From Actinomycetota bacterium (GTDB lineage Bacteria; Actinomycetota; Thermoleophilia; BMS3ABIN01), in contig JACRMB010000007.1 of NCBI GenBank assembly GCA_016235065.1, forward strand, positions 62,001 through 126,000: a stretch of 64,000 nt of DNA, written 5' to 3'. Every line of letters starts with the position of its first letter. Position 1 is the first letter of the stretch. The position numbers and the translations under genes were made by a program. The notes beneath the pieces were generated by a model, which ran no database searches, had not been told where the DNA came from, and was given only the letters and a program-made list of their open reading frames with translations. Shown here one piece after another: positions 2,205-54,481 of this stretch.

Positions 2205-2227
2205 CATTTACGCCGGAGGTGGTCCCC

Positions 2228-2931: not shown

Positions 2932-2940
2932 CAGAAATAG

Positions 2941-3738: not shown

Positions 3739-4298
3739 ACTTACAGGTAAAGGGAAGGAACATCGCCGTAACCGACGCGCTACATGCCTATGTGGAAGAA
3801 AAGCTTGTCAAGCTGGGCAAGAACCTCAACAGCGCCAGCACCATGGAAGTGGAGCTGTTCGTGGAGAAGAATCCAAGCATAGCCGACAACCAGGTGGCTG
3901 AGGCGACTATCTTCACCAAGGGTCCGGTTCTGAGGGCCAAGGGAGCATCCGCCGACATGTATGCTTCCATAGACCTGGTAGAGAGCAAGCTGGGCCGCCA
4001 GGTCAAGAAGTACCGCAGCAAGCTCACGAGCCATGACGCGCACGTCCGTGGCAGCATCCCGCCGGATGCCATCCTGCAGATGCCCGAGCCAGTGGAAGCT
4101 GAGGAAGAGGAAGAAGAAGGACCGCAGATAGTGAAGCTCAAATCCTTCGACATCAAGCCGATGTCGGCTGAGGAGGCAGCGCTGCAGCTGGAGCTGATCG
4201 GCCACGACTTCTTCGTCTTCCGCAATTCGGAGTCGAACGATACCAGTGTCATCTATCGCCGGCGAGATGGTAATTACGGGCTGATCGAACCCAGGTAG
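3735..4298 (+). CDS. hpf: Ribosome hibernation promoting factor, long form
   Basis: Binds the 30S decoding region and promotes 100S ribosome dimers in stationary phase. Residues 1 to about 100 are the S30AE domain (MNLQVKGRNIAVTDALHAYV, then KLGKNLNSAST). An acidic linker EAEEEEEEG follows, then the C-terminal dimerisation domain (IVKLKSFDIKPMSAEEAALQ through VIYRRRDGNYGLIEP). The 187-residue length and the tail mark the long form typical of Gram-positive bacteria. Coupled to comF by a 4-base overlap; secA follows after 75 bases. Confidence 0.95.
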   Translation: MNLQVKGRNIAVTDALHAYVEEKLVKLGKNLNSASTMEVELFVEKNPSIADNQVAEATIFTKGPVLRAKGASADMYASIDLVESKLGRQVKKYRSKLTSHDAHVRGSIPPDAILQMPEPVEAEEEEEEGPQIVKLKSFDIKPMSAEEAALQLELIGHDFFVFRNSESNDTSVIYRRRDGNYGLIEPR

Positions 4299-4373
4299 GC
4301 GTTCTGGATGCAGGCGCCTTTAAGGGAAAGCCGCTGAAGTTTAACGACGTTCCCTCTGGTAGACTGTTTAATA

Positions 4374-35212: not shown

Positions 35213-35239
35213 GCGGCTCCATCTGTCCGCGCATGCGGG

Positions 35240-35245
35240 TATACT
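35240..35245 (+). promoter_or_regulatory. Candidate -10 of the ssrA promoter
   Basis: TATACT lies about 75 bases before the mature tmRNA 5' end, in a 107-base gap. No good -35 is evident. If used, the precursor would be trimmed at its 5' end as usual. Confidence 0.35.
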
Positions 35246-35413
35246 ATTAGTGAACGCGAGATCCATAGTATCCATCACGATTTGAGTCGCCACAGGGCGA
35301 CGCATCACCCACCTTACATGGGGGCGACCTGGTTTCGACGGGGTCAATCTGGATGGGAGCAGCAAGCCGAGCTTCCGGTGGGCTCGTTAAACTACCGGAA
35401 AACTAACTCAAAC

Positions 35414-35443
35414 GCAGACGATAATCTCGCGTTAGCCGCTTAA
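35414..35443 (+). other. tmRNA proteolysis-tag coding segment
   Basis: GCA GAC GAT AAT CTC GCG TTA GCC GCT TAA reads ADDNLALAA and stop, ending in the canonical ALAA degron. The frame is open further upstream (KTNSN), so the exact resume codon is not fixed by inspection. Confidence 0.8.
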
Positions 35444-37158
35444 TTGCGGCTCGTCGTTCCCGCTAAGTCCACGAGCGGGGTAACGGCGTCAACAAGTGGA
35501 CTCAACCGCCGCGGTTGTCTCTCGCCGCGGTTGGGAAACCTTAGAGAGGCTGGCGGACCGGATCCTGCCTTCGCGGAGCCGGAACGTGAGAAACCAAAAG
35601 CGTAGGCTAAGCTTGTAGATACTCCCTTTTGGATGGCTTCGGACGCGGGTTCGATTCCCGCCGCCTCCACCAAACGCTTGTTACCCGAACTTTGCTCGAA
35701 CAGAGCGCCAAAAAGTTCGGTGTAATCTTTGTTGCTGATTTTCTTGTCTTTCACATAGATCTTTTCAAAAATGGCTTGGTTAAAGAGCCGTTTGTATTTG
35801 TCGCTGCATCCCTTGTAGGCGTCAGCGCAATAGGACGCCAGCTCAGCCGCCCGGGTCAGAATCCCGGTGTAATATTCCAGCTGGGTAGTAATCACTTTCA
35901 ATCTGCCCTCGGACACAGCCATTTCAGAAGCTATCCGGTCCTGCTCGATTTTGAGAACGTCCATGGGAACGGCACCAGCGTAATAGGCTTTCACGATTTT
36001 CAGCTTCTCCGCGTTTAGCCGCTGCATTTTCTTAAGGATGAACTGCTCTTCCATTGCCTGATGTTCCTGGCGTGAAATCAATTCTTCTCGGAAATCCTTG
36101 ACCAGTCTTTCGATGCTGTCTTTGGGAAGCTGAATCTCTTCGTAGAGTTCAACAATCTGTTTTTCAATATCTGAGGCCAGCACGTGCTTTGTATGAGTAC
36201 AGCCTCTACCCCTCTTAGTTCCCAGACAATAGAAGTAGTTGTATTTGCCTTTGGCCTTGGCGATGGAGAGCCGGGAACCGCATTCACCACAAAAGAGGGT
36301 TCCCTTGAGAAAGTGGGGATGCTTTCTCTTTCGCTCCCCGGCAGTGTTTCTCATATCGGTCACTTCTTGAACCTTGTCAAAAAGCTCCTTGTCGATGAGC
36401 GGTTCATGGTTGCCCTTCGCCTGAACGCCGCTCCACGTGACGGTTCCTATAAAGAATGGATTGGCCAGGACGCGGTTCACTGTGGAGGAAGTAAGAGGCT
36501 TATTCTCGTCCTTTTGGCTTCTGATTCCTTTGTCATAAAGGAAATCCCGAATATCGTCCACCGAATAATTGCCGGTCGAATAAAGTTCAAAGGCTTCTTT
36601 GACAAAAGGACCGGCGACAGGATCGATGATCACCTTGGCAATGCCTCTGCCACCTTCGCGGATGTTCTTGTAGCCGACAGGAGCCTGATGAGGCCAACCG
36701 CCCTGCTTCACTTTCTGTTCCATGCCTTTTTTGATTTCGGTGGCCAGATTAGCGGAGTAAAACTCGGCCATTAGTGCGTGTATGCCCTCCACGAACCTTC
36801 CCGAGGCGCTGTCCTCGATATTTTCAACCACAGATACCAGCTGGACGTTGGCGCGCTTGAGAATGGCTTTGATCGCCACATGGTCTTCCATATTCCGCGC
36901 CAGCCGGTCGATCTTGTGAACAACAATGGCGCTGACATCTTTTCCCTTTTTGATACGGGAAAGCATCAGCTGAAGGCTTGGGCGGTGAGCGCTCCTGGCG
37001 GATTCGCCCCTGTCGGCGTACTCATCAATAAACTTCCAGCCCTTTTCCTGAATGAGCTTCATACAGGCTTCACGCTGGGCAGCGATAGAGTAGCCTTCGC
37101 TCTCATTGGTCTGGGCCTGTTCCTTGGTTGATACTCTTAAATAAATGACACAGTTCAT
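35440..37158 (-). CDS. Large serine recombinase; C-terminus encoded antisense to ssrA
   Basis: Integrase of the island. Residues 1-145: resolvase catalytic domain (VIYLRVSTKEQ with the nucleophile Ser10, VVHKIDRLARN, and an R in DRGESARSAHRPSL). Then the recombinase DNA-binding domain (APVGYKNIREG to FFIGTVTWSG), a zinc ribbon CGECGSR...C...C and a long coiled coil (residues about 345-440). After GNKRLVEA the frame enters the ssrA 3' end and about 75 further codons are antisense tmRNA (AGIEPASEAIQKGVSTS onward), stopping opposite the tag codons. That tail is unlikely to be native. The start overlaps the XRE gene stop. Confidence 0.92.
   Translation of the reverse strand: MNCVIYLRVSTKEQAQTNESEGYSIAAQREACMKLIQEKGWKFIDEYADRGESARSAHRPSLQLMLSRIKKGKDVSAIVVHKIDRLARNMEDHVAIKAILKRANVQLVSVVENIEDSASGRFVEGIHALMAEFYSANLATEIKKGMEQKVKQGGWPHQAPVGYKNIREGGRGIAKVIIDPVAGPFVKEAFELYSTGNYSVDDIRDFLYDKGIRSQKDENKPLTSSTVNRVLANPFFIGTVTWSGVQAKGNHEPLIDKELFDKVQEVTDMRNTAGERKRKHPHFLKGTLFCGECGSRLSIAKAKGKYNYFYCLGTKRGRGCTHTKHVLASDIEKQIVELYEEIQLPKDSIERLVKDFREELISRQEHQAMEEQFILKKMQRLNAEKLKIVKAYYAGAVPMDVLKIEQDRIASEMAVSEGRLKVITTQLEYYTGILTRAAELASYCADAYKGCSDKYKRLFNQAIFEKIYVKDKKISNKDYTELFGALFEQSSGNKRLVEAAGIEPASEAIQKGVSTSLAYAFGFSRSGSAKAGSGPPASLRFPNRGERQPRRLSPLVDAVTPLVDLAGTTSRN
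35661..35672 (+). repeat. Left attachment core (12-bp direct repeat)
   Basis: CCGCCTCCACCA, the last 12 bases of tmRNA including CCA. Exact copy at 54470-54481 in the same orientation. Bases on either side of the two copies differ. Confidence 0.85.
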
Positions 37159-37526
37159 TTCTTTTTCCTCTGCGCCTCTCTGGCTTTCATCACTGCTTCA
37201 TAAGCTCGAATCAGTGACGCCTTCTCTTCGGCGTTCATGTTCGGCACTTCCTTAAACATCATCGTGAAGCCAGGATCGGTAAGACCCAGGCGTTCAAGTT
37301 CAGAGTCCTGTTTTAAGTCTTCCACTTCTTCCCAAGCTAGCCCCATGATGTCAGCCCAAGCCTTGAGCTTGTCATCAGAGGGAAGGAAGCGGCCTCGTTC
37401 GGCATCCGAGATGTAGCTATTTGATCCGACGCCGAGTCTTTCAGCCAGGTCTTCCTGGCTGATGCCTTTTTCCAGACGGATTTGCTTCATCTTTTTGCCG
37501 AAATGAATGTGTTTTTTCTTTTCCAT
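37155..37526 (-). CDS. XRE-family transcriptional regulator
   Basis: 123 residues with an N-terminal helix-turn-helix (MKQIRLEKGISQEDLAERLGV then SYISDAERGRFLPSDDKLKA). A helical C-terminal half (MNAEEKASLIRAYEAVMKAR) may dimerise. ATG 37526 is used because it begins the conserved part; an in-frame start 13 codons upstream is less likely. Its stop overlaps the recombinase start (ATGA), so it heads a two-gene leftward operon and probably controls excision. Two inverted-repeat sites upstream are likely its operators. Confidence 0.85.
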   Translation of the reverse strand: MEKKKHIHFGKKMKQIRLEKGISQEDLAERLGVGSNSYISDAERGRFLPSDDKLKAWADIMGLAWEEVEDLKQDSELERLGLTDPGFTMMFKEVPNMNAEEKASLIRAYEAVMKAREAQRKKK

Positions 37527-37620
37527 CGCTTTTCTGACGATACAATAGCATCGATTGCGAGTCAATGGTTTTATGAAATCCAGCTATTTATCCACAATAA
37601 GCGTTATCTTGTACACTTGA

Positions 37621-37643
37621 AATATCGTAAGTATACCGATATT
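37621..37643. promoter_or_regulatory. Inverted-repeat operator, copy 1
   Basis: AATATCG - 9 bases - CGATATT. Identical arms and spacing recur at 37686-37706. It lies between the divergent XRE gene and the small rightward gene; arms spaced this way suit an XRE dimer. Confidence 0.7.
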
Positions 37644-37685
37644 ATTGATTCATCTTCGGCTTATGCCCTTTATTTTTGGCTTAGT

Positions 37686-37706
37686 ATATCGAAGGATTAA
37701 CGATAT
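37686..37706. promoter_or_regulatory. Inverted-repeat operator, copy 2
   Basis: ATATCG - 9 bases - CGATAT, 65 bp from copy 1 centre to centre, overlapping the probable promoter of the rightward gene. Confidence 0.7.
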
Positions 37707-37729
37707 TTAATAGGTTCAGAGAGGCAAAA

Positions 37730-37915
37730 ATGACTGACACCCGCTTCCAAGAGTTAGACAGTGAAAAGGTCAGATACCAGATGAAGAAACTGGTAGCTGC
37801 CTTTTTGGGTGCCGCCGAAGAATCGATCCTGGCCGAGAGGGCCGGCGCTGAAAAAGCCAAGCCCCAGCCTTCCCACAACAAATCCACCGCCCATCCGCAG
37901 GAAAGCGCCTCTTAA
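37730..37915 (+). CDS. Small hypothetical protein of the island
   Basis: 61 residues, ATG with GAGAGG upstream and directly behind operator copy 2, so probably regulated by the XRE protein. An N-terminal amphipathic helix (FQELDSEKVRYQMKKLVAAF) continues through AAEESILAERAGAEKA, and the tail is rich in Pro, His and Ser. No family recognised. By position it could be an excision factor, antirepressor or regulator, but nothing in the sequence proves it. Confidence 0.55.
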   Translation: MTDTRFQELDSEKVRYQMKKLVAAFLGAAEESILAERAGAEKAKPQPSHNKSTAHPQESAS

Positions 37916-38017
37916 AATGCCTATTAATTACGTATTAAGACCCAAAACCTTGAAAAACATTAAAACCACCAGGGGGAAATTAACTGGATTTACAGGGCAT
38001 TTAGCCCACTTCAATCC

Positions 38018-38144
38018 AGCGCCGTCTGTCTTCGTTTACAGATCAAACGAAGCCCGACTTCCCGCCCCTCGACTTGCAGTTTCCCTCGTTTCTTCGTCTC
38101 GTCGGCGAGGCGCGGGAAGTCTGGCTTATCAGCCAGACGGCGCT
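38018..38144. repeat. Nested inverted-repeat element, possible origin or structured RNA
   Basis: Outer arms AGCGCCGTCTG (38018-38028) and CAGACGGCGCT (38134-38144) are perfect. Inside, CTTCGTTT/AAACGAAG (38030-38037, 38045-38052) forms a hairpin, and a 16-bp stem with one mismatch pairs 38056-38071 with 38106-38121. A further TCTGGCT/AGCCAGA hairpin competes with the outer arm. GC-rich in AT-rich surroundings, 48 bases before the replication-relaxation gene. Confidence 0.7.
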
Positions 38145-38191
38145 CCCTTCGGTCGCTTAATTTCTCCCTGGTTTAAAACGGAAAGACAAGA

Positions 38192-39031
38192 ATGAAAACA
38201 GCAAGAATAAACAACCGAATAACACCGATGTCGTTGACAGCTCGGGACGTGATGATAATCCTAAGTGTTTACGAGAATCGCTTCTTGAGGCGGGACCAGC
38301 TTCAGCGGCTTCACTTTTCAAGTGCATCACAGGTTGCCTGTTGTGTCCGGCTCAAGAAGCTTTACGAGAATCATTTTCTCGACAGGGTTGATCGACCGGC
38401 AACCTCAGTCAAATCCCAGGCCGTTTACGCCCTCGACAAGCGAGGGGCCGACGTGGTGGCGGTAACTCTTGAAATCAACCGCCATAAGATCAGATGGAGC
38501 CGCGCCGCGAACCGCGTGGAATGGCTCTTCATGGACCACACACTAGCTGTGTCTGAGTTCAAGGTATGCCTCGACGTGACGCTTGCCACTCGGAGAGAAG
38601 AGATATATTTCTATCAGCGAGGAGACAGGTCTCATCTGCGCCGGATTTCCGTGACGGGAGCCAAGAAGAGATATTTTGTTGTTGCACCTGACGCCTTCTT
38701 TGGAATCCAGAGCGGCAGAGGCAAGCACATCTTCTTTTTGGAGGTGGATATGGGAACGGAGACGCTATCGAGGTTTACTGAAAAGGTTGTTGCTTACAAG
38801 AGATATTGGAAATCCGGAAAATACGGAGAGGAATACGGATTCAATCACTTTCGCGTCATCACTATCTGTGAAAGCGAAAGACGCCTGGACAATTTACGCC
38901 AGGCGACGGGGAAAGCAGGAGGGCAAAGAATGTTTCTGTTTACGACTTTCCAAGCAATTCAGGAATACAGCACGCTTGGAAGCATCTGGCTTTCCCCGGT
39001 TTCAGATTTACCAACTTCTTTGTTGGAATAG
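38192..39031 (+). CDS. Replication-relaxation family protein
   Basis: 279 residues. Winged-helix N-terminus (LTARDVMIILSVYENRFLRRDQLQRLHF, VRLKKLYENHFLDRVDRP) followed by a nuclease-like core: DHTLAVSEFKVCLDV and an acidic HIFFLEVDMGTETLSRFTEKVVAYKRYW, the conserved end of the Replic_Relax family found on plasmids and integrative elements. The family is linked to plasmid replication or relaxation; biochemical detail is limited. It follows the nested inverted repeat, which may be its target. Confidence 0.8.
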   Translation: MKTARINNRITPMSLTARDVMIILSVYENRFLRRDQLQRLHFSSASQVACCVRLKKLYENHFLDRVDRPATSVKSQAVYALDKRGADVVAVTLEINRHKIRWSRAANRVEWLFMDHTLAVSEFKVCLDVTLATRREEIYFYQRGDRSHLRRISVTGAKKRYFVVAPDAFFGIQSGRGKHIFFLEVDMGTETLSRFTEKVVAYKRYWKSGKYGEEYGFNHFRVITICESERRLDNLRQATGKAGGQRMFLFTTFQAIQEYSTLGSIWLSPVSDLPTSLLE

Positions 39032-39427
39032 CCCGTTTAGGGCATGGCTTTCAGGGTCAGTCCCGGAAGGATGAAGCCCTTTTCCGCAAATCTGCCGCGC
39101 ACCTTCCTCCTTGGCAGGTTTTGCCCTTGCTGGCTGCGGAAGGTCCGGCTCAGGCTGCGAGCAAGCGTCCCCGAGCCGGGCTGAAGGCTCAAAGGTATGA
39201 ATTACCATTAATAAACTAGGAGTTTGACAAGAAGCTCATGTGTTGACAGATGTTCAGCTGAAGCTTTATAGTTTAATAACCGGTGGGGGAGGAAAAAATT
39301 ATGCCCTGGCGAAGTACACAACTAAGGTTGGTGCTGCCAGGAGCTTTTTGGTTCTAATCTTTGGCAAACGCAACCCTGGGCGATGCATCGAACGTTTGTC
39401 CATGCAAAGTTTGGAGCAGCGAGACAA
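39032..39427. other. Intergenic region with GC-rich hairpins and leader
   Basis: 396 bases without a convincing gene. The left half is GC-rich with complementary CCGGCTC/GAGCCGG arms around 39145-39180; the right half is AT-rich and holds a promoter for the P-loop/HD pair, leaving a leader of about 150 bases. Confidence 0.5.
39243..39272 (+). promoter_or_regulatory. Sigma-70 promoter of the P-loop/HD pair
   Basis: Perfect TTGACA and TATAGT separated by 18 bases. A second TTGACA-like hexamer lies upstream (GTTTGACAAG near 39221). The rightward gene pair begins about 150 bases downstream. Confidence 0.7.
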
Positions 39428-40372
39428 ATGAATACAATCGTATTCGCATCGGCCAAGGGACAGGTCGGCAAAAGTACACTTTGCCGACTTTACGCCGAGT
39501 ACTATGCTGTGGAAAAAAAACTCAAGACTCTAGTTATTGAGTCTAATTTTTTTACCTCCGGCAAGGAATATCCAATCTCTTGCGAACTTCCGAAGACAAT
39601 CGATGAATTTATTTTAAGTTCTGTCGCTGAGAATATTCCAGATTCTGAACTCCCCAGTTATATCAATAGCACTGAACTTGCTAACCTTTTTATACTACCC
39701 ACAAAAAGGATTTCAGATCAGGATATCTATTCTCCAGCAGATGAAGAAGCTAAAGATAACATTCGCAAACTTCTCGCTGTAGAAAGCACAACAAAGTTTA
39801 TTACTTCTTGTATTCAGCGGATAAATAAATATGCTCTCGAGGAGAAGTTTGACTTTTTTCTAATTGACACAACTTCAGATACCTCACCTAATTTAAATCT
39901 AACTTTAATTGATCGTGTTTTGACCTCTAGCTTCATTAATGGTCATGTTATGGCCATAGCTGAAACGAACTTTGAGGTCTTAAAAGAAACTATTATTTTT
40001 ATATATAAGAATGCTGGAAGAACGAAAACCTCAATCGAGCAACAAACTCTGATTACAAACAAAACTCCTACTGATGATCAAATCGATGAAGTTTGTCGGA
40101 TCGAAGAAGACGATCAATGTTTTGATAAACAGCTGAAAGAAGCTGCAGAAAAACAAAATGTCGTAAATTTTATCCTTAGTCAAGCAAACGTTCCCTTTGT
40201 TCTTAAAGACAATCAAGACGCTTTGAAGGGCTTAGAAGAGCTTTACATTCCTTTTGAAATTAGATTAAAGAGTTCCTCGCCACTGCCTCAGCCCAAAGAG
40301 CTATTGAAAAAATTGGAGGCTTTACAGCCCAACATTCAAGCGACTGCTGATCGCATTCTCGAACTCTGCTAG
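39428..40372 (+). CDS. ParA/MinD-like P-loop ATPase
   Basis: 314 residues starting at ATG with GGAG upstream. The N-terminus MNTIVFASAKGQVGKSTLC is a deviant Walker A of the ParA/MinD/CbiA class, with glutamine where KGGxGKS has glycine, and FDFFLIDTTSDTSPN is the Walker B segment. The C-terminal third is helical and polar (QIDEVCRIEEDDQCFDKQLK). No ParB-like gene or parS repeat is near; instead an HD phosphohydrolase gene follows 51 bases later. This suggests a regulatory or sensing switch in a two-gene unit rather than plasmid partition; partition cannot be excluded. Confidence 0.72.
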   Translation: MNTIVFASAKGQVGKSTLCRLYAEYYAVEKKLKTLVIESNFFTSGKEYPISCELPKTIDEFILSSVAENIPDSELPSYINSTELANLFILPTKRISDQDIYSPADEEAKDNIRKLLAVESTTKFITSCIQRINKYALEEKFDFFLIDTTSDTSPNLNLTLIDRVLTSSFINGHVMAIAETNFEVLKETIIFIYKNAGRTKTSIEQQTLITNKTPTDDQIDEVCRIEEDDQCFDKQLKEAAEKQNVVNFILSQANVPFVLKDNQDALKGLEELYIPFEIRLKSSSPLPQPKELLKKLEALQPNIQATADRILELC

Positions 40373-40423
40373 TCATTTTTTTCTCCGCCTTTTCTCCGCC
40401 AATCAACAGGAAATGAATTTTTG

Positions 40424-41818
40424 ATGCGAATGTTGCTAGACGACAAACGTTTTTTTAAAGATTATTTCAACTTCAGAGATGAACTGGAGCGAATTTCTGA
40501 GCTTAGAATCGATAGCTTGGGCGAGATAAATCGTACTCCAATATTTGAAGAAGATGTACCTTGGTCAGATAAGCACGATCAATATGCAGATGTAATGTAT
40601 TCAAAAAATAAGATGGACTGGCCAAGGTTGAAATTGCCGCACGAATCACTGCGTCGTTTCGCTCATGTCTATTTTGCACCTCTCGGTATTCGGGCATCAG
40701 TTGGTGATTACGTATTTTTTGAGTGGCTAATGGGCTTTAATCCATCTGCAGATAATATAAAACGAGAGCACTTTGGGCATGTGTCCAAAGTTGCTTGGTG
40801 TTGTTGGAAGCTGATTGAAATATTCAAGGAAGTGCAACCAGCTGATGATGTTTCTGTCCATGAAGTATTAATTTCATCAACAAGAAGAAAGTTCAAAGCA
40901 TTTCTCGATCATGTTGGGGTGCCTCTTAATGAAGATACCGATTTTGGAAGGATTTTGCTGGAATCTGTACTTTTAGCAGCCTATATGCATGATAAAGGAA
41001 TTATTCTAAATTTCTATGATGATCTTCGGGAGAAGGTTCTTCACGCGTTTAAACCGATGTGGGACCAAAGTTTGCTGTACTATGGTGGCACTGGCGAACG
41101 TGCAAGAAAAAAATATAGCTCTTTTTGCGATTGCGATAATGTTTATGACGGTAAAAATGATTGTTCCGTTGAGGATGTCATGGGCATGGAGCGAGTATGC
41201 AACTTTTTCGCGGCCGAGCGCGTATTAGGTAGGGATTATTGGCACGACATTTTTTGCAATTATGCTACCTCAAAATTTCCTAGGACAATCTATGACGAAG
41301 TAAAAAAGAACTATCACGGTGTTTATGCAGCTCTTGAGTTGCTTGCAATGCAGATTGGTTGCTTACAAAAAAATGCTGACCAATTTAGTGATTCCCTAGA
41401 GCGAGAATTCATCCTAGCTTTAGCTGCCGAGGCCGTTGCACTACATGATTTGAAGGTTGAAAAAAGAATAGACCTTGAAGAAAGCCCAACTGCTTTTCTT
41501 CTGTATTTGGCAGATGAGATTCAACAATGGCAACGGCACCAATTAGATATTAATAAGTTGCTCAATGAGCAAGTGCTTTATTGGGGGGATGGCGAGATTC
41601 AAAAAGTTTGCATAGAGACCGATGAAAATGATCTGTTCATTCAAATAACAAAGATCTCCAACGAAACAGATATTAGCAAAATTAAGAATGACATCTTAAA
41701 AGCAGAGCGGAAGATTCAGGAACGTTTAGACACCAAAGGACTGTTTACAATTCATTATTTTATTGATACATGTAATATATGTGACGTTGTTCCTGCGAGA
41801 GATTTAATTAAAGCTTGA
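40424..41818 (+). CDS. HD-domain phosphohydrolase-like protein
   Basis: 464 residues. HD-superfamily residues can be followed in order: REHFGHVSKVAWC (first His), LAAYMHDKGIIL (HD pair), KNYHGVYAALELLA, AAEAVALHDLKV, and SPTAFLLYLADEIQQWQR (terminal Asp), a block shared by HD proteins whose usual form is nPlaFLLxLxDelQxWxR. The N-terminal 90 and C-terminal 80 residues are not recognised. Substrate unknown; nucleotides are likely. Together with the P-loop ATPase it is a candidate defence pair. Confidence 0.68.
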   Translation: MRMLLDDKRFFKDYFNFRDELERISELRIDSLGEINRTPIFEEDVPWSDKHDQYADVMYSKNKMDWPRLKLPHESLRRFAHVYFAPLGIRASVGDYVFFEWLMGFNPSADNIKREHFGHVSKVAWCCWKLIEIFKEVQPADDVSVHEVLISSTRRKFKAFLDHVGVPLNEDTDFGRILLESVLLAAYMHDKGIILNFYDDLREKVLHAFKPMWDQSLLYYGGTGERARKKYSSFCDCDNVYDGKNDCSVEDVMGMERVCNFFAAERVLGRDYWHDIFCNYATSKFPRTIYDEVKKNYHGVYAALELLAMQIGCLQKNADQFSDSLEREFILALAAEAVALHDLKVEKRIDLEESPTAFLLYLADEIQQWQRHQLDINKLLNEQVLYWGDGEIQKVCIETDENDLFIQITKISNETDISKIKNDILKAERKIQERLDTKGLFTIHYFIDTCNICDVVPARDLIKA

Positions 41819-41840
41819 CGAACATATTACTTTATTGAAA

Positions 41841-41870
41841 AAAGGCGAATCTTAAAAATGATTCGCCTTT
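41841..41870. terminator. Bidirectional terminator between convergent genes
   Basis: An 11-bp stem AAAGGCGAATC/GATTCGCCTTT with a TTAAAAAT loop, flanked by A-rich and T-rich sides, sits between the rightward HD gene and the leftward small gene. Confidence 0.88.
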
Positions 41871-41875
41871 TTGCT

Positions 41876-42298
41876 TTAAAGCAGCACAGCCAGATTCATG
41901 TTCTCCACGTTCTCGTCTTCACGAGCCCGCATATTACTGAGGATCTCAATGGTTCTTATGAACTCCCCTGCAATGTGTTTTGCTAAACGTCCTGAGATTC
42001 CACCATATCCCCCCACTATTCTGAAGGGCCTGAAGTATACCATCCCGTTATGGATAACGGGAACCTGCCCCTCTCCTAGAAAGGTAGTGCCTGATGAATT
42101 TATTCTCAAACGTTCTTCTAGTTCTAATTCGAGATCCAGATTAGCCTCGAATTTGGGGAATGTCATGTGAAGGCCATACACCTCTAACGCAATACGCTTC
42201 GACTTTCCATCATCGATGTATTGAAAGAGCTTTTCGATAGAAGGAAAAATTATATTCCATGCCTTCTCGATCAGTTCTTGCCCTATCACATTTTGCAT
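41876..42298 (-). CDS. Hypothetical protein
   Basis: 140 residues, not recognised. The N-terminal helix (LIEKAWNIIFPSIEKLFQYI) is followed by beta-like segments (KRIALEVYGLHMTFPKFEAN, TTFLGEGQVPVIHNGMVYF), a glycine-rich turn GGYGGISGRLAKHI and a helix. No cysteines, no membrane segment. It is last on the leftward strand, 191 bases after the UPF0489-like gene, and may or may not belong to that operon. Confidence 0.6.
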   Translation of the reverse strand: MQNVIGQELIEKAWNIIFPSIEKLFQYIDDGKSKRIALEVYGLHMTFPKFEANLDLELELEERLRINSSGTTFLGEGQVPVIHNGMVYFRPFRIVGGYGGISGRLAKHIAGEFIRTIEILSNMRAREDENVENMNLAVLL

Positions 42299-42489
42299 GA
42301 TGCGCTCCTTTTACTCACTTTCCAGGACTGGAACTGCCCATGAGCCTGCTCAGGCAGAACCCAGCCCTAGAAAAGCTAAGGAGCTCAATAATAGATATAT
42401 CACAAATAATAAAAATTGTATACAGTTTTGGTCTACAGTATTTCTTGAGAAAGCAGCATTTGTTGAAACTGAGAGTTTAGAAAATGCTT

Positions 42490-43254
42490 TTAGAATTCTT
42501 CGATGTAGCTTCTTATCAAATCAACGAGGGCATCAGAAGTCGCAGGTGTATATTCTGGCGAAAGGCTCAGGATAACCAAATCAAACGGTTTCTCGGCCTG
42601 ATATTCAGCAACAGAAACCATTTCAAAAGGTATCTCGGGCTCGCATTCTATAATATCCTCATATTCGAGGTCATTCACATCTTTATTATTTTCAAAGCCA
42701 CGTTCACAACGTTTTAGTTCGATGATTCCTGAGTTTCGAGAGAAATCTTTGAAATGTAAATGGATAAGGTCATTTCCACCGCGTTCATGATGTACATAAG
42801 TTAGACGTGATATCCATTGACATGCTATTGCAAATGCAAGGTAGTTCCCAGGTAAAATTCCGTAAGAATTGCCGCGTTTCGGGTCGCTACGTTCAATTAC
42901 CGGTTTGTGCAACAGCTCTCCCATGATATAAACGTAAGCAGCATCTCCCAAACCCATATCTGCATGGGCATCTGCGTGAACGACTTCAAAAGGATTTCGG
43001 ATTCTCCCAGCTGTAATCTCCTCACGCCAATAATAAAAAGCCTCATCATGATGAGTAATAATTTTTCCTGGAGCCCTATTAACAGTGGAAAGCAAGCACT
43101 GCTGTTCCAAGAATAGTATTAGCCTTTCCTTAGGCCAAGGCCGATATTCCTCTTCATCTAGGCGAGAATCACCTTGCTGCCAGTGGGCTATATCCGAAAG
43201 GAAAAGATCAAGGTCGAGATCGAGAATGCGTTGTTGTGACAAGATCTTTGTCAA
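42490..43254 (-). CDS. UPF0489-like arginase-fold protein
   Basis: 254 residues from TTG directly after the protease stop, with only two bases between. ILDLDLDLFLSD and FEVVHADAHADMGLGD are the metal-binding blocks of the UPF0489 family, whose fold resembles arginase/deacetylase, with LVILSLSPEYTP as the last strand. The reaction is unknown; ureohydrolase-like or deacetylase-like chemistry is possible. Its fixed position behind an ImmA/IrrE protease and an HD enzyme is unusual. Confidence 0.72.
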   Translation of the reverse strand: MTKILSQQRILDLDLDLFLSDIAHWQQGDSRLDEEEYRPWPKERLILFLEQQCLLSTVNRAPGKIITHHDEAFYYWREEITAGRIRNPFEVVHADAHADMGLGDAAYVYIMGELLHKPVIERSDPKRGNSYGILPGNYLAFAIACQWISRLTYVHHERGGNDLIHLHFKDFSRNSGIIELKRCERGFENNKDVNDLEYEDIIECEPEIPFEMVSVAEYQAEKPFDLVILSLSPEYTPATSDALVDLIRSYIEEF

Positions 43255-43255
43255 T

Positions 43256-44047
43256 TTAAATGAACAGCTTTAGACTGCTCATTGAAACAATAAGGAATAC
43301 GACATCGTTCGATTGCTCATCTATGTCTAAAAATTGCACGTTTTCGAATTGATCCTTATCTCTTTTGCTGAGATACTCCTGAGCTAATTCCCGAAGCTTA
43401 CTCCTATCATCCTTCGACAGTGATGGGGAAGCAGCCGCGCCTTGTTTGATTAAGCGCCAATTATTATCTTCGCTCCTCATCCAACGACCCGCAATACCAG
43501 TTACCAACTCATAATCGGCTAGCATAATTCTTGCAGCCCAAGAACGGTTGATATTAAGATAAACATGTAGCTTTCGAAAAATAGTTTCGAGATTAGTTTC
43601 ACCAATAATTTCTAGAAACTCTAGGTGCTGTCTTGGTGCTAATAAATGTCGTGCAACGTCAAAACAAAAATGTTCTTCTCTTGTTTGATGAGTAATTAAT
43701 CTGCGGGGCTTGCTTTCAAGGGGACTTGTGTAGAATAACGTATGCGCTAACTCGTGAGCCACAGATGCTCTAAATCTTCGGGCTGGAAGGTCGGCATTGA
43801 CGCGAATTTGGAAGCCGTAATTTGTCGGCAACAACATCGCCCCACTTTCCATACCTGAAAAAGTCTCGATTTTTGAATTCAGGACTCGTGCAAGGCGATA
43901 GACTTCAACTGGTACGATGCGGCGATAGCTTGGGTGATTCATGTAGCCTTCAAGTAAAAAATTGGAGGCTTCCTTCACGGCCTGCTGCCAGACTTCCCCT
44001 TCTGCAGATAGCCACTCTTGGACTAAGTTGACGCTGGTTTCACTCAT
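43256..44047 (-). CDS. ImmA/IrrE-family metallopeptidase
   Basis: 263 residues. The zinc site HELAHTLFY lies in RASVAHELAHTLFYTSPL, with a downstream glutamate in REEHFCFDVARHLLAP as third ligand, the arrangement of ImmA/IrrE gluzincins, which cleave repressors in response to stress. The ATG overlaps the end of the upstream HD gene by eight bases (ATGAGTGA), so they are translated together. Its target may be an operon partner or a host repressor (inference). Confidence 0.85.
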   Translation of the reverse strand: MSETSVNLVQEWLSAEGEVWQQAVKEASNFLLEGYMNHPSYRRIVPVEVYRLARVLNSKIETFSGMESGAMLLPTNYGFQIRVNADLPARRFRASVAHELAHTLFYTSPLESKPRRLITHQTREEHFCFDVARHLLAPRQHLEFLEIIGETNLETIFRKLHVYLNINRSWAARIMLADYELVTGIAGRWMRSEDNNWRLIKQGAAASPSLSKDDRSKLRELAQEYLSKRDKDQFENVQFLDIDEQSNDVVFLIVSMSSLKLFI

Positions 44048-45731
44048 TTTCCTCAGATTGCTCTTCTGCTTTAGTGCCATCTAATTCGAGTTGATCTTTT
44101 GAATTTTTTACTTTTGACTTTTTCACAGGACTACTCTTTTCAGAAGCAGCCTCGCTAATAGCTTCATCAATTAACGACTCGTCAAATGACCCTCCTTCCA
44201 ACGCAGCATCTTCCTCTGTCATTTCTGTAACTCGACGAGAGACATCAGGAGCATATCTTGTTCTCCAGGCACCATTCACTTTTTCATAAATCTCAGCTGC
44301 TTCTTTAAAACGAGGATTTTGTTTCGCGTAAGTTTCGATAAACACCGGATCACAATCTATTCCTAGCTCCCTCGCTAATGCGTCGATGACTGCTGGTGCC
44401 TTTTCCATCTGTTCCGGATTAATCCCAATCCAAAATGTCCAGAGATCCAAGTATTGGTTTTCTATGGTTTCAACGCGATCATATACTCTTCGAAACTGAT
44501 CACGGACTTCCTGGCTCCGAAGTACGACAGGCTTATGCCATCCGCCGGACTGTTGCCAGATGACATTTGCTTTTACAAGCTTCATTCCTGACTTTCCTTC
44601 GGGACACCAGAGAACAAGTGAGCCACGTTGTAAATCGAGCCTATCTTCGATTTTGACGAGTAGTTCTTCTATTGCTTCTGAATTGCGCCATTTCACATCG
44701 AATTTGTCATCATCTGACTGGCTGTTCCTTCGATTCCAACTCTCCATGTCTTGCCGTTGAATCTTGAAAATACGCTTATATAGATTTCGTGACCGTAAAC
44801 GGTCAAGCAACATTTTGGCACCATCTCCTGTAGGCTTGTCAGGGGAATTCGCTGCCAGGCTTTCGAGGTATAGGAGAAAGGCTTCATCTCCCATATCCAA
44901 CAGTTTGGGTTCATCTTCTAAATTTGCAAGCCTTGCTGCGCGGGCTAACATTGCGCTTGCGATTGCCTTGGCGTGATGGTAAATGACGCGTTCAGTCAGA
45001 GCATACCTCATGTCAAGTAAGTCCATTATTGCCGAAACTATATCTGTACGAAGGCCGCCCTTTGTTAATTTTATGCATAGCCTTTCGTTGGTTCCTTCCG
45101 TCCCATCATCATCCCTAACCGTTTTTTCTGCCCTGGTGAAATAGTCATAGATGCGGTAATAGCCCGGTCGCTTCTCGATGCCAGTCCATGCGGCGTCGGT
45201 GGTGATGTAAGCGAGGAGATCAGCGCAAACGGTATTGCCGACAAGATCGCTCTTCCAATCCCGAACGGAGTCATTTGACGAGGAAATAGCGTGAAGTATT
45301 GGTGCCGCTCTATCAATGAGGGCTTGTGCATCATCGCCCACCTCACCCTTGAGTTTTTCAAGAACGTTTGAGACGCGCTCGCCCTTGTCGTGCTTTGGTA
45401 AAACTTCATTCTCGTCTTCCAGTGTGTGGCTAAAAGGAACGTGTCCCATATCATGCAAAAGGGCCGCCATTCTTACATCCGACCAGTCATTGCTACCTGC
45501 TTCAACCCCAATAGCATCGAGAAGCCTGGAAGCTTCGTCAAGACATTCAATACTGTGTCCTGCTCTCGTGTGGGTTGCACTAGGATAAACTAAATGAGCT
45601 AATCCAAGTTGTTTCAAATAAAACAGACGCTGAAAGACTCTGGTTCTTGTAATTTCAGCCTCAAGCTCTGTGAGCTTTACATCGCGGTTGGGTATGCGGA
45701 ATCTTTTATTTTTTTCGTCGAAGTCGCTCAA
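44040..45731 (-). CDS. HD-domain dNTPase-like phosphohydrolase
   Basis: 563 residues resembling dGTPase/SAMHD1-type enzymes. FQRLFYLKQLGLAHLVYPSATHTRAGHS leads into the first His, and MAALLHDMGHVPFSHTLED is the HD motif with the usual PFSH; NDSVRDWKSDLVGN and LAYITTDAAWTG complete the core (the last Asp). The C-terminal tail is acidic and lysine-rich (KSSPVKKSKVKNSKDQ) and probably disordered. Predicted to hydrolyse dNTPs or another nucleotide. It leads an operon with the protease and the UPF0489-like gene. Confidence 0.84.
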   Translation of the reverse strand: MSDFDEKNKRFRIPNRDVKLTELEAEITRTRVFQRLFYLKQLGLAHLVYPSATHTRAGHSIECLDEASRLLDAIGVEAGSNDWSDVRMAALLHDMGHVPFSHTLEDENEVLPKHDKGERVSNVLEKLKGEVGDDAQALIDRAAPILHAISSSNDSVRDWKSDLVGNTVCADLLAYITTDAAWTGIEKRPGYYRIYDYFTRAEKTVRDDDGTEGTNERLCIKLTKGGLRTDIVSAIMDLLDMRYALTERVIYHHAKAIASAMLARAARLANLEDEPKLLDMGDEAFLLYLESLAANSPDKPTGDGAKMLLDRLRSRNLYKRIFKIQRQDMESWNRRNSQSDDDKFDVKWRNSEAIEELLVKIEDRLDLQRGSLVLWCPEGKSGMKLVKANVIWQQSGGWHKPVVLRSQEVRDQFRRVYDRVETIENQYLDLWTFWIGINPEQMEKAPAVIDALARELGIDCDPVFIETYAKQNPRFKEAAEIYEKVNGAWRTRYAPDVSRRVTEMTEEDAALEGGSFDESLIDEAISEAASEKSSPVKKSKVKNSKDQLELDGTKAEEQSEENE

Positions 45732-45838
45732 GATTTTCCCACCCAGCTCGGTTTTTTTTGGGGAAACAATTATAGTCTATGGTGACTAAAAAAGAACCCT
45801 TTTCTTCAAAAGGCACATAAATAGATGTATCTTGAAAG

Positions 45839-45875
45839 AAAAAAGCGGAAAATTCGCGAGAACGCTCCGCTTTTT
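45839..45875 (-). terminator. Rho-independent terminator
   Basis: Arms AAAAAAGCGGA and TCCGCTTTTT around a 16-base loop. Located 29 bases after the stop of the leftward gene ending at 45904, and upstream of the HD operon, which it isolates. Confidence 0.8.
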
Positions 45876-45903
45876 CATATTGCTATATCACATTTACGTT
45901 GCT

Positions 45904-46485
45904 TCAGAGGCTTTCATTGAGTTGCAGCACCCATTCTGATCGGTTTGCAGCGCTCTCAACCTCTTTCTTATACTCAGCGGCGTGAAACAGGATCTCCTGT
46001 CGCACCAGCTCAATCTGCTTTTCCCTGAAAGCTGCTCCGCTTAAGGGTTTATCCGGAATAGCCTTGAGATTGCAATCGGCGTCGATGCTCTTTCCAAGCT
46101 TTGAAAGCATGAAATCCTTCAGGCTCCTATGACCTTGACTTGGCGGTTCCCATGCGCTCGCCTTGGAAAACATCGCTTCATATCGAATCTTCACTTTCTT
46201 CACCCTATCGTTATGCAACCGCGCTTCCTCGACCTCTCTTTCAAATTCGTCAACTGCCATTATTGATGCAGTCTCATCATCCCAGGCGTCGATTGTGGAG
46301 AGACGATCCATCGCATCTCGTAGCTTTTCGAGCTGCTCATTGCTGGGCTCGAATTTTTCTGGAATGGGCTCATTCTCCTCCAGCACACCGAGGAATATGC
46401 CTGAATTACGTGCGCACTGAATCGCAAAATGTGAAAAACTCACCTCTTTTCCATCGTAAATGTTTTTTGTGTACTCGTTTGGCAT
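45904..46485 (-). CDS. Hypothetical protein, phage-like
   Basis: 193 residues, mostly helical and charged, not recognised. EKLRDAMDRLSTIDAWDDET and EFEREVEEARLHNDRVKKVK suggest coiled coil; the C-terminus (AAFREKQIELVRQEILFHAA) is also helical. Similar charged helical proteins occur in phages and islands. ATG is preceded by AAGGAG. Divergent from dcm, with 194 bases between that hold both promoters. Confidence 0.6.
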   Translation of the reverse strand: MPNEYTKNIYDGKEVSFSHFAIQCARNSGIFLGVLEENEPIPEKFEPSNEQLEKLRDAMDRLSTIDAWDDETASIMAVDEFEREVEEARLHNDRVKKVKIRYEAMFSKASAWEPPSQGHRSLKDFMLSKLGKSIDADCNLKAIPDKPLSGAAFREKQIELVRQEILFHAAEYKKEVESAANRSEWVLQLNESL

Positions 46486-46679: not shown

Positions 46680-47936
46680 GTGGAGCAAAATCGTGTTTAT
46701 CATCGACCGTTTAGGAACTTTTTATTGCCGACTGAATTACTAAAAAAACCTTTTTCCACTAGCCAGGAGCCTAAGAGAGCCTCTAGGCAACACGTTTTCT
46801 ATGAGTTCTTTGCTGGCGGCGGGATGGCCAGGGCAGGCTTGGGCCGTCAGTGGAAGTGCGTTTTTGCGAACGAGATCGATAAGAAGAAGGCTGAAACATA
46901 CCGGGCAAATTGGGGAGCTCAGGATTTAAGTGTGCAGGATGTTAATCTCGTTACGCTGGATGATCTACAGGGTGAGGCAGATCTTTCTTGGGCGTCATTT
47001 CCGTGTCAGGACCTTTCATTGGCAGGTAATGGGATGGGTTTATGCGCTCAACGTAGCGGCACCTTTTGGCCCTTTTGGAAGCTAATGCGCGGGCTCGTCA
47101 AAGAGGGTCGAGGGCCAAGGCTAATAATTCTCGAAAACGTCTATGGCGCGCTCACGAGTCATAATGGACGTGATTTTGCTGAAATCGGTTCCGCATTGTC
47201 CGGTTCAGATTATTCTTTCGGCGCGGTAGTGATTGATGCAGTTCACTTCGTTCCCCAAAGTCGGCCAAGGCTATTTGTAATAGGGGTCAGAAAAGATTTA
47301 AGAATTCCTGACGAATTAAAGGCGGGATCTGCGGGCTTGCTTTGGCATCCAAAAGCCATCCTGGCCGCACATCGTAATCTTTCAAAGACCGCAGCGAAGA
47401 AGTGGGTATGGTGGGATATTCCAGCCCCATCAACTCGATCGATCTCTTTACCAGCGCTCATTGAGACAGAGCCAACCGGAACCACTTGGCACACTGCCAA
47501 AGAAACGGCTTACTTGCTGAAGCTCATGTCACCAACCAATAAGAAAAAAGTTGAATCGGCCAAAGCATCCGGCAAGCGGATGATTGGAACGGTTTATAGG
47601 AGGACAAGGAATGGTCAGCAACGAGCCGAGGTCAGATTTGACGAAATTTCAGGGTGTTTGCGAACACCAATCGGAGGGTCTAGCAGACAAACTATCTTAG
47701 TCGTTGAAAAGGGCAAGGTCAGGTCCCGGCTTCTTTCGACAAGAGAAGCGGCGCGTCTCATGGGCCTTAAGGACACTTATAAGATTCCTGACAACTATAA
47801 TGCTGCTTATCATCTTGCCGGTGATGGTGTTGTTGTTCCTGTCGTGGGGCACATAAGCAAACACGTTCTCGAACCCATTCTTGAAGCGAATTCCACAACC
47901 GCTAGGGAAAGCTCGGCTATTTCACCTCGTGCCTGA
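46680..47936 (+). CDS. DNA (cytosine-5)-methyltransferase
   Basis: 418 residues starting at GTG. Motif I FYEFFAGGGMARAGLGRQW, motif IV SWASFPCQDLSLAG with the catalytic cysteine in PCQ, motif VI ILENVYGAL (ENV), motif VIII FVPQSRPRLFVIGVR (QxRxR), and a C-terminal motif IX-X around RLLSTREAARLMGLKD. A complete m5C enzyme, the modification half of a restriction-modification system with the overlapping downstream gene; sequence specificity unknown. Confidence 0.94.
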   Translation: MEQNRVYHRPFRNFLLPTELLKKPFSTSQEPKRASRQHVFYEFFAGGGMARAGLGRQWKCVFANEIDKKKAETYRANWGAQDLSVQDVNLVTLDDLQGEADLSWASFPCQDLSLAGNGMGLCAQRSGTFWPFWKLMRGLVKEGRGPRLIILENVYGALTSHNGRDFAEIGSALSGSDYSFGAVVIDAVHFVPQSRPRLFVIGVRKDLRIPDELKAGSAGLLWHPKAILAAHRNLSKTAAKKWVWWDIPAPSTRSISLPALIETEPTGTTWHTAKETAYLLKLMSPTNKKKVESAKASGKRMIGTVYRRTRNGQQRAEVRFDEISGCLRTPIGGSSRQTILVVEKGKVRSRLLSTREAARLMGLKDTYKIPDNYNAAYHLAGDGVVVPVVGHISKHVLEPILEANSTTARESSAISPRA

Positions 47937-48867
47937 TGCATTATTAAAAGCCCTGAAGGAGTTTCTCGAAGATAACCCTACTTTTGGGATGAAGGGGCCG
48001 CTATGCGTCGCATTGGTTGTTACTGACCAGGCTCAAAAATATGGATTACCTCTTGAGCCGGACAATTTACTCACGGGAAGGGGAGGTCAGGTTGCTGGGC
48101 TGAGCGGTGGAGCCGTCCAAACAATACTTAATAGACATGGGATTGACAGACCCCTTGCTAAAGAAGGAGGCAGAACAAGTCGCGGAAGCATCGATAATAT
48201 GAGGCTTTTTGTGGATTTTCTCAATCATTTGGAAGCTGAAGGATTGGTGGACTTCGAGGTTATAGAATCCTTCTGGATCAACCAGACCAAGGAGTTCTTT
48301 GCAAGCAAACCCTTCAAACTAAAACTTGATGCCTCCCGCAGCATCGTTTTCATAGTGCGAGATTTGCTGGACCAAACAAGAGCACGGGAAAAAGAAATGC
48401 CCGGCGTTCATTATGCAGGCGCGGTCATTCAACATCTTGTTGGAGCCAAGTTAGATTGTGTACTTGGTACTGGAAACATTGAGCATCACAGTTTCTCAAC
48501 TTCTGACCAGCAAACAGGCAGGCACGGTGATTTCTTTACTGGTGACGTCGCGGTACATGTAACCACTGCACCAAACGAAGCTGTAATTGACAGATGTCAG
48601 ACAAATCTAAATGAAGGCCATCGCCCGATCTTGATCACCCTTGAAGATAAGGTTGAGTATTCAAAGATTACAGCAGATCAGCGAGGGTTAGGTGAGCGGA
48701 TCGATGTATTCGGGATCGAACAGTTCGTGGCAGCCAACATTTATGAATTAGGTGGCTTTGCAGGTGAGGGTAGGAAAACGACCATCGCCGATCTGATCAA
48801 GCGTTACAACGAAATTATTGAATCAGCAGAAACTGACCACAGTATGAAGATTGCCTTCCAGGGCTGA
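47929..48867 (+). CDS. DUF4928 family protein, probable restriction endonuclease
   Basis: 312 residues from GTG 47929, which overlaps the methyltransferase stop; TTG 47881 is an alternative. Typical DUF4928 segments: LVVTDQAQKYGLPLEPDNLL, GRGGQVAGLSGGAVQTIL and, in the C-terminal half, HYAGAVIQHLVGAKLDCVLG with GDFFTGDVAVHVTTAP. This family stands next to m5C methyltransferases, so it is probably the cognate restriction enzyme. No PD-(D/E)XK is obvious, though the late acidic/lysine stretch ILITLEDKVEYSKI could serve. Confidence 0.8.
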   Translation: MPDALLKALKEFLEDNPTFGMKGPLCVALVVTDQAQKYGLPLEPDNLLTGRGGQVAGLSGGAVQTILNRHGIDRPLAKEGGRTSRGSIDNMRLFVDFLNHLEAEGLVDFEVIESFWINQTKEFFASKPFKLKLDASRSIVFIVRDLLDQTRAREKEMPGVHYAGAVIQHLVGAKLDCVLGTGNIEHHSFSTSDQQTGRHGDFFTGDVAVHVTTAPNEAVIDRCQTNLNEGHRPILITLEDKVEYSKITADQRGLGERIDVFGIEQFVAANIYELGGFAGEGRKTTIADLIKRYNEIIESAETDHSMKIAFQG

Positions 48868-49294
48868 TAAATCTGCAGCTGCCAAGCGCAGTGAGATAAT
48901 GCGGGCCGTTCATTCTGAGGACACTGGTCCTGAAATGATAGTCCGTAAGCTAGTACACTCTCTCGGTTTTAGGTATCGCCTTCACGTATCGACTCTCCCC
49001 GGGAAACCAGACCTAGTTTTTCCGTCCAGAAGGAAAGTTATATTTGTCCACGGATGCTTCTGGCATGGCGACAGTTGTAAGCGAGGCAAACGAGTTCCCA
49101 AAGGAAATCGCGACTATTGGGTTAAGAAAATCAGTCGGAACGTTGAGCGGGATAAGAAGAACCAGAAATTATTAAATGAGCTTGGCTGGGACTATTTGAT
49201 TATCTGGGAGCATGAATTGAAAGATTTGGCGCTCGCAGAAAACCGAATTGTTAGTTTTCTAGACCCAACAAGATATAAGTCAAATGGAAAATAA
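48851..49294 (+). CDS. vsr: Very short patch repair endonuclease Vsr
   Basis: 147 residues, TTG start overlapping the preceding gene. Nicks next to T in T:G mismatches formed when 5-methylcytosine deaminates. Motifs: RSEIMRAVHSEDTGPEMIVR, FRYRLHVSTLPGKPDLVFPS with the catalytic aspartate, VIFVHGCFWHGDSC with zinc ligands, and DYWVKKISRNVERDKKN. Placed after an m5C methyltransferase, it protects the host from methylation-induced mutation. Confidence 0.95.
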   Translation: MPSRADKSAAAKRSEIMRAVHSEDTGPEMIVRKLVHSLGFRYRLHVSTLPGKPDLVFPSRRKVIFVHGCFWHGDSCKRGKRVPKGNRDYWVKKISRNVERDKKNQKLLNELGWDYLIIWEHELKDLALAENRIVSFLDPTRYKSNGK

Positions 49295-50090
49295 CCGCTC
49301 GAAATCTGTACCGGCGTTAACATCCGGTCAGCTAGAAGCGCTTTGTAAAACTTTAGCTGATACTTTTTCTGGTCTAACAGGCTCAGAAATCGGTCATATT
49401 CTGAATCAAATTCGGGTCGCTGATATATCGCCGATAATGACCAAATGGAAACGCCTTTATAACGCTTTAGTAGAGCGTCAGAATCGGGATCAAAGTGGAG
49501 ATCGTGTCTTTGCCTTCATTGCTCGGGCAATGGAGCCAGCTCGTTATGCAGGTCAAATTGATTTCTTTGAACAAAGAGTACAAGAAATTAATGTCACATT
49601 GTCATATCTCGGATATGAGTTTCATGAGGATGGCAAGTTCCATCGTTGCAAGCAAGCAAAAACGTTATCCGAAGCCGAGGAAAGAGCTAACCGAATGCGA
49701 TCCCTACTTATTAAACGTAATATTCATCCTGACGTTATCAAATTTTGTCGAGCCGAACTCATGAAAAATAATTGTTTTCATGCCGTTCTCGAAGCTTGTA
49801 AAAGCGTAACCGCAAAGATCAGAGATCGCACCGGACTGACCAGCGATGGAGCTCAACTAATACAGGAAGCATTTGGAGGTAATAGCCCGCTTCTCAGGGT
49901 AAACTCCTTTTCTTCAGAAAGTGAGAAAGGAGAACAAAGAGGTTTTATGAATCTTGCCATCGGCTTATTCGGGACGTTTCGTAATCCGACTGCTCATGAG
50001 GCAAGAATTCGCTGGCCTCTCAACGAAGAAGATGCATTAGATCTCTTTGCCTTAGCTTCTTATGTGCATCGCAGAATTGAACGAATTTAG
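49284..50090 (+). CDS. TIGR02391/Ymh family protein
   Basis: 268 residues overlapping vsr by eleven bases. The C-terminal half carries the Ymh signature: FHAVLEACKSVTAKIRDRTG, GLFGTFRNPTAHEARIRW and EDALDLFALASYVHRRIERI. The R-N-P-T-A-H pattern is HEPN-like, suggesting RNA binding or cleavage. Ymh proteins are common inside restriction-modification and defence clusters, but their activity is not settled. Confidence 0.82.
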   Translation: MENNRSKSVPALTSGQLEALCKTLADTFSGLTGSEIGHILNQIRVADISPIMTKWKRLYNALVERQNRDQSGDRVFAFIARAMEPARYAGQIDFFEQRVQEINVTLSYLGYEFHEDGKFHRCKQAKTLSEAEERANRMRSLLIKRNIHPDVIKFCRAELMKNNCFHAVLEACKSVTAKIRDRTGLTSDGAQLIQEAFGGNSPLLRVNSFSSESEKGEQRGFMNLAIGLFGTFRNPTAHEARIRWPLNEEDALDLFALASYVHRRIERI

Positions 50091-50175
50091 TAGAGCTAAA
50101 GATTCCTATGACTTGACTGCGCGAGCGATTGGTCATGTAATAAGCGGTATTATTCAACTTCTGGGCGGGCAATAA

Positions 50176-54395: not shown

Positions 54396-54481
54396 TTAAG
54401 CGGAAACCTGCTTCATTACTCGCTCCAGACGACTTAATATATTGACCTCAGAGTTCGAATAACGTTGCACCGCCTCCACCA
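54396..54481 (-). pseudogene. Displaced 3' end of the serine recombinase reading frame
   Basis: Read leftward through the repeat, the frame that continues the recombinase after GNKRLVEA gives VQRYSNSEVNILSRLERVMKQ-like residues and then a TAA stop at 54396-54398. The helix SEVNILSRLERVMKQ looks like genuine protein. In the excised circle this would restore a native recombinase C-terminus. Confidence 0.6.
54470..54481 (+). repeat. Right attachment core (12-bp direct repeat)
   Basis: Exact copy of the ssrA terminus CCGCCTCCACCA at the point where AT-rich island DNA changes back to chromosomal DNA. Confidence 0.85.

Follow-up and report, generated by a model that had tools for sequence, protein, structure and literature searches.

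Two-gene defence built around an HD-domain hydrolase is represented by Clover, in which the HD dGTPase CloA serves as the effector and the nucleotidyltransferase CloB as its regulatory partner (PMC12265719). MinD/ParA-like domains with altered motifs occur in conflict systems, in settings predicted to serve conflict or immunity (PMC7159879); ParA-like proteins with altered motifs also include the KGGVGR-variant ATPases (NF047398). Proteins with RyR domains, for their part, act on nucleotide immune signals by degrading or sequestering them (PMC13232231). A defence pair of a ParA protein with an HD protein was not found described in the open-access literature. Here, we analysed a window of 64,000 nt, corresponding to positions 62,001–126,000 of contig JACRMB010000007.1 (assembly GCA_016235065.1), from the 2.37-Mb genome of an Actinomycetota bacterium (Thermoleophilia; BMS3ABIN01), in which a gene for a ParA-like ATPase (P0001) is followed by one for an HD protein (P0002). 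The locus resembles Clover in its two genes and in the putative combination of an HD-domain hydrolase effector with a regulatory partner; in contrast, no dGTPase-family model matches P0002, and a ParA-like ATPase stands in the place of the nucleotidyltransferase. With moderate confidence, we read the pair as a two-gene cargo cassette that is most likely an immune module, comprising an HD phosphohydrolase under the control of the ATPase.

The earlier note on this DNA had described an ATPase gene followed by an HD gene, bracketed by a strong promoter of their own and a terminator, and this layout is borne out by our analysis. Both open reading frames are present on the + strand (Table 1), with a spacing of 48–51 nt. 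The second opens with TTG at 40421, and the ATG at 40424, which follows an AGGA, is its likelier start; for the ATPase, the ATG at 39428 (MNTIVFASAKGQVGKST) is likelier than a start at 39383. The promoter is the sole TTGACA-18-TATAGT site on the + strand of the 64-kb window, and the probability of its arising by chance in the intergenic stretch upstream of the ATPase gene is ~8e-4 (first-order resampling). The terminator hairpin, which has a main stem of 13 pairs, separates the HD gene from a convergent gene at 41876–42298. The two genes are also alike in third-position GC (0.33 and 0.35), compared with 0.60 for the recombinase and 0.56 for the relaxase encoded nearby, and 0.77–0.83 for the host genes just upstream. 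Taken together, these observations support a self-contained two-gene cassette with one promoter and one terminator.

Table 1. Features of the ATPase–HD gene pair and of the element that carries it, in window coordinates
Feature	Position	Strand	Evidence
attL core CCGCCTCCACCA, last 12 nt of ssrA (tmRNA 35320–35672)	35661–35672	+	same-genus ssrA genes end in same 12 nt
Serine recombinase, 3' end overlapping ssrA	35440–37158	-	Resolvase 3.4e-35, Recombinase 1.2e-16
HTH regulator, element backbone	37155–37565	-	HTH_3 2.5e-12
Replic_Relax relaxation protein, element backbone	38192–39031	+	PF13814 9.3e-30
Left cargo boundary; DNA identity with sister element ends at 39194	39195–39242	+	blastn, alignment
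Sigma-70-like promoter, TTGACA-18-TATAGT	39243–39272	+	11/12 consensus match
ParA/MinD-like SIMIBI ATPase (P0001), 314 aa	39428–40372	+	AAA_31 4.9e-4, phrog_164 3.5e-5, AAA_KGGVGR 0.0056
ATPase Walker A, KGQVGKST	39455–39478	+	aligned with ordinary ParA-like proteins
Asp of ATPase Walker B, FFLIDT	39866–39868	+	sequence reading
HD-type phosphohydrolase (P0002), predicted, 464–465 aa	40421–41818	+	subfamily signature and HMM
H120, predicted metal ligand in R115-x-H117-x2-H120	40778–40780	+	invariant in alignments with relatives
H190-D191, HD dyad	40988–40993	+	invariant in alignments with relatives
H299 of HG motif	41315–41317	+	invariant in alignments with relatives
H342 of A-x2-LH motif	41444–41446	+	invariant in alignments with relatives
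LADEIQQWQR block, D365 predicted metal ligand	41507–41536	+	subfamily signature
Terminator hairpin between convergent HD gene and gene 41876–42298	41839–41872	.	-23.2 kcal/mol, z = -6.1
attR core CCGCCTCCACCA inside AGTTCGAATAACGTTGCACCGCCTCCACCAT	54470–54481	+	exact 12-mer

Although weak, the profile matches of P0001 fit a ParA/MinD-like fold. Its AAA_31 match, despite the E-value (Table 1), scores 20.5 bits, under the cut-off of 27; the match to AAA_KGGVGR of NCBIfam reaches 17 bits against a curated cut-off of 90; and the best E-value comes from phrog_164, a ParA-like family of PHROGs. The unusual Walker A motif that had been pointed out is real: the ORFs of the ParA-like loci used for comparison contain 23 KGxxGK[ST] motifs, of which 22 have G at the third position and only that of P0001 has Q, with both lysines kept in P0001. 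By sequence reading, the Walker A' motif is VIESN, with ESN replacing the Asp pair of DxD. In retaining the Walker A lysine and in being a standalone protein of 314 aa, P0001 differs from both the MinD/ParA-like domains of conflict systems and the KGGVGR ATPases, and the KGGVGR neighbourhoods that we examined contain no member of the HD subfamily described below. Single-sequence searches of IMG/VR, plasmids and phages with P0001 recovered no clear relative, the similarity being generic ParA-like or at chance level, and the seven IMG/VR loci matching the KGQVGKST pattern encode proteins unrelated to P0001.

The pair lies within an element of ~18.8 kb in ssrA, delimited by the attL and attR copies of a 12-nt repeat. 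GC content drops from ~58% to 39–50% between the end of ssrA and ~54.5 kb, and rises again at attR. In a same-genus genome (G042), six attR-like copies spaced 0.8–2.2 kb apart lie downstream of ssrA (L082 1732–9110) and support the attR assignment. With a recombinase, a relaxation gene and direct-repeat att sites, the whole stretch between the two repeats is an ssrA-integrated mobilizable element. As a separate observation, the six repeats of G042 suggest that ssrA in this genus bears stacked insertions or the scars of insertions.

A sister element occupies ssrA of another same-genus genome (G054, L083), sharing 84.6% DNA identity over 35220–39194 and none beyond (blastn). The recombinase–HTH–relaxase backbone is common to both elements, with 92% identity between the recombinases and 75% between the relaxation proteins, and the shared identity ends 48 nt ahead of the promoter of the pair. 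Past this backbone, the sister element carries DUF6908, RadC and other genes until its contig ends ~4.4 kb further on. Because the same backbone is thus followed by other genes, the ATPase–HD pair is exchangeable cargo and not backbone. The remaining cargo consists of a minus-strand cluster that encodes, among others, a second HD protein and an M78-like peptidase, a cytosine methylase with a restriction enzyme and Vsr, and genes for a PD-Lambda-3 B homologue, a DUF6119 protein and an HNH protein. The known defence genes that had been noted nearby are confirmed as a type II restriction-modification set, made up of a DruM-like cytosine methylase, a DUF4928 enzyme and Vsr (within 46680–51777, +), and a PD-Lambda-3 B homologue downstream of it (49284–50090, +; 6.3e-89); the DUF6119 protein that follows the latter within the same interval had no PADLOC hit.

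The proximity of a ParA-like gene to a relaxation gene raises the alternative of element maintenance, by which the ATPase would be a divergent ParA stabilising the excised or replicating element and the HD protein an unrelated or accessory product. We regard this as unlikely. The ParA-like matches of P0001 and the position of its gene directly downstream of the Replic_Relax gene speak in its favour, but no ATPase follows the shared backbone in the sister element over the extent of its contig, and the pair has its own promoter and a third-position GC unlike that of the backbone genes. Moreover, the absence of ParB and parS noted earlier held up. No ParB-like gene was recognised in the island, where the short nearby ORFs were listed without an evident partner, and the sole ParB_N match of the whole genome lies on another contig (G000:C3). 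The search for canonical parS sites, a scope distinct from plasmid-type centromeres, returned a single site in the window, at 45610, whose three mismatches place it at chance level. P0001 is comparable to the ATPase of type I ParA/ParB partition through its weak profile matches, whereas the pair comes without ParB or a canonical parS, and the Walker A and A' motifs are atypical. Plasmid partition as the main reading was rejected on the sister-element comparison, the location of the ParB_N gene and the lack of canonical parS.

The HD protein is divergent with respect to all profile libraries searched. Pfam returned no family at E up to 1, HD models included, and the matches in NCBIfam and PHROGs were at chance level; PADLOC (PADLOC-DB 2.0.0, 2023) matched neither P0001 nor P0002 up to E 0.1. 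Nevertheless, H190 and D191 are intact, as is the LLYLADEIQQWQR block, in agreement with what had been claimed for this protein, and the H...HD...D ligands of the HD superfamily are found in order as H120, H190-D191, H299, H342 and D365. These residues belong to an ordered signature, R-x-H-x2-H / HD / HG / A-x2-LH / P..FLLxLxDE[IL]QxWxR, that of an unnamed HD subfamily characterised by P..[FY][LM]LxLxDE[IL]QxWxR together with R-x-H-x2-H, HD, H[GA] and A-x2-LH.

Four further members were found, three of them beside DUF4062-NACHT-WD40, TIR or PRTase/HATPase proteins and one without a recognised partner. When 296 genomes of the phylum were scanned with the motif L-x-D-[EQ]-[IL]-Q-x-W-x-R, the only protein recovered besides that of the window was a 581-aa HD-RyR protein, present in three genomes of one family (L047/L051); it follows a 1426-aa DUF4062-NACHT-WD40 protein (L051 1090–7214; neighbour checked with Pfam in one genome). 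The motif scan of IMG/VR contributed a receiver-HD protein encoded after a 1602-aa phosphoribosyltransferase and HATPase protein (L060 2165–8588; no PADLOC match above chance) and another HD-RyR protein, the one lacking a recognised partner (L061). Similarity to the HD-RyR protein led to the last relative, which adjoins a TIR protein in a human-faecal phage record (L062) and whose C-terminal tail matches the RyR region by tblastn, yet has no Pfam hit. This record also shows a likely cassette at 543–6509, made up of a 511-aa protein that has no Pfam hit, the HD protein with its RyR-like tail and the TIR protein, which contains three repeated segments. All these proteins share the ordered HD signature of P0002, but differ from it in carrying RyR (or RyR-like) or receiver domains and in the identity of their partners, a ParA-like ATPase being recognised as a neighbour of none of the distant HD relatives examined.

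Like P0002, its relatives match no Pfam HD model. Across P0002 and five relatives, the invariant residues (P0002 numbering) are R115, H117, H120, V124, R155, H190, D191, H299, A338, L341, H342, P356, L361, L363, D365, E366, Q368, W370 and R372, with an identity to P0002 of 19–23% in the six-way alignment and of 25–29% in smaller ones. A profile of the relatives built with P0002 left out scored P0002 at 25.9 bits, against 8.4 for the best of 2,000 shuffles. Ahead of the DEIQQW block, the ordered motif constellation R-x-H-x2-H...HD...H[GA]...A-x2-LH arose in 0 of 300,000 shuffles of P0002, under spacing limits chosen after the alignment had been inspected; most relatives were fetched through the block itself, so that only these upstream motifs are independent. 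Because the profile match to P0002 loses significance once the DEIQQW block is masked, membership rests on the block and the order of the motifs. On this basis, we accept P0002 as a member of the unnamed HD subfamily, with the reservation that its overall identity to the relatives is low (19–29%).

Structure predictions were of low confidence. AlphaFold models of P0002 reached a pLDDT of 39.7 from the single sequence, and a pLDDT of 38.2 with a pTM of 0.40 when two relatives were added, residues ~120–190 and ~320–370 being better; they depict a protein that is helical to about residue 383, followed by a small alpha/beta tail. Foldseek yielded no significant match with the P0002 model. When its list for the three-sequence model (pLDDT 38) was realigned with VIA-align, cyclic-nucleotide phosphodiesterases (PDEs) filled all 50 of the 50 rows shown, over residues 79–387, at Z 5.5–6.9, which is under the level that the tool advises trusting; the control with the single-sequence model gave mostly 14-3-3 helices. 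PDEs are abundant in the PDB. Owing to this abundance and the low Z values, the resemblance is a hint, not proof, of an HD/PDE fold. It nonetheless bears on a second alternative, housekeeping-type signalling, in which the HD protein would turn over a nucleotide second messenger with the ATPase as its localisation or activity partner and no role in defence. The RyR and receiver fusions of the relatives also suggest signalling; however, the pair is carried by a mobile element in the company of restriction and PD-Lambda-3 genes, is missing from the other same-genus genomes searched, and has HD relatives that adjoin NACHT and TIR proteins, which makes this alternative distinctly improbable.

The pairing itself was seen in one genome. 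No close homologue of P0001 or P0002 was detected in the plasmids, phages, IMG/VR or GTDB genomes sampled, and single-sequence searches of genome_contigs, IMG/VR, plasmids and phages with P0002 revealed no clear relative. Within the class, 399 genomes held no relative of P0002 apart from a chance hit, and a profile search of 309 genomes recovered only the copy in the window. Widened motif variants of the search patterns gave no matches, and two weak matches considered as relatives (L002 and L006) were rejected as being at chance level. Genomes of other phyla were covered by a pattern-based scan of genome_contigs with low sensitivity, and the pair may therefore exist elsewhere. The earlier note had held that an HD protein encoded without the ATPase in most genomes would count against the proposal: the distant relatives, with no recognised ParA-like neighbour, lean that way for the wider family, although none of them is a close homologue. 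That the two are unrelated cargo genes placed together by chance, as the lack of a second genome with the pair and the different neighbours of the distant relatives might suggest, is very doubtful given their common promoter and terminator, the 48–51 nt between them, their similar third-position GC and their joint placement at the cargo boundary.

We therefore return to the immune module, which is the best-supported reading because the pair is mobile-element cargo among defence genes and its HD subfamily recurs beside NACHT, TIR and PRTase/HATPase proteins. The HD protein would be the effector, a metal-dependent phosphohydrolase that hydrolyses a nucleotide or a nucleotide signal, with a fold possibly like that of cyclic-nucleotide phosphodiesterases. 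The ParA/MinD-like ATPase would be the regulator, whose nucleotide-driven dimer switch might sense infection, or hold back and then release the HD enzyme. That the two proteins act jointly is inferred from the operon layout; which of them controls the other, what the enzyme hydrolyses and whether phages are the target are likewise inferences. Counting for the immune module are the close same-strand genes with one promoter and one terminator, their similar third-position GC, the sister homology that ends before the promoter, the shuffle and profile results, the neighbours of the HD relatives, the defence genes of the island and the published precedents for MinD/ParA-like, HD dGTPase and RyR proteins; counting against it are the occurrence of the pairing in one genome, the absence of a ParA-like partner among the HD relatives, the non-significant block-masked profile, the low-pLDDT models and the missing PADLOC match. 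The candidate two-gene defence system proposed earlier is supported in part: its cassette, deviant Walker A, HD signature, lack of a partition partner, defence neighbours and lack of a PADLOC model are borne out, whereas its role in defence and the conservation of the pairing stay putative.

A broader and more tentative proposal is that the ATPase is the sensor or gatekeeper of an HD/PDE-like enzyme that destroys nucleotides or signals, and that ParA-like proteins are one of several regulator types, alongside NACHT, TIR and PRTase/HATPase, acting on one unrecognised HD effector subfamily, which would constitute a new two-component immune system. If true, an ATPase-controlled HD enzyme would join the catalogue of phage defences, with an effector subfamily that lies outside all profile libraries searched and recurs beside NACHT, TIR and PRTase/HATPase proteins.

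Beyond the terminator, the minus-strand cluster at 41876–46485 encodes a dGTPase-like HD protein with HD_assoc_2 (44040–45731), an M78/IrrE-like peptidase that matches CapP weakly (43256–44080, -), a UPF0489/peptide-arginase-like protein (42490–43254, -), a phrog_8905 protein (45904–46485, -) and a short unknown protein, and may represent a second uncharacterised module within the same element.
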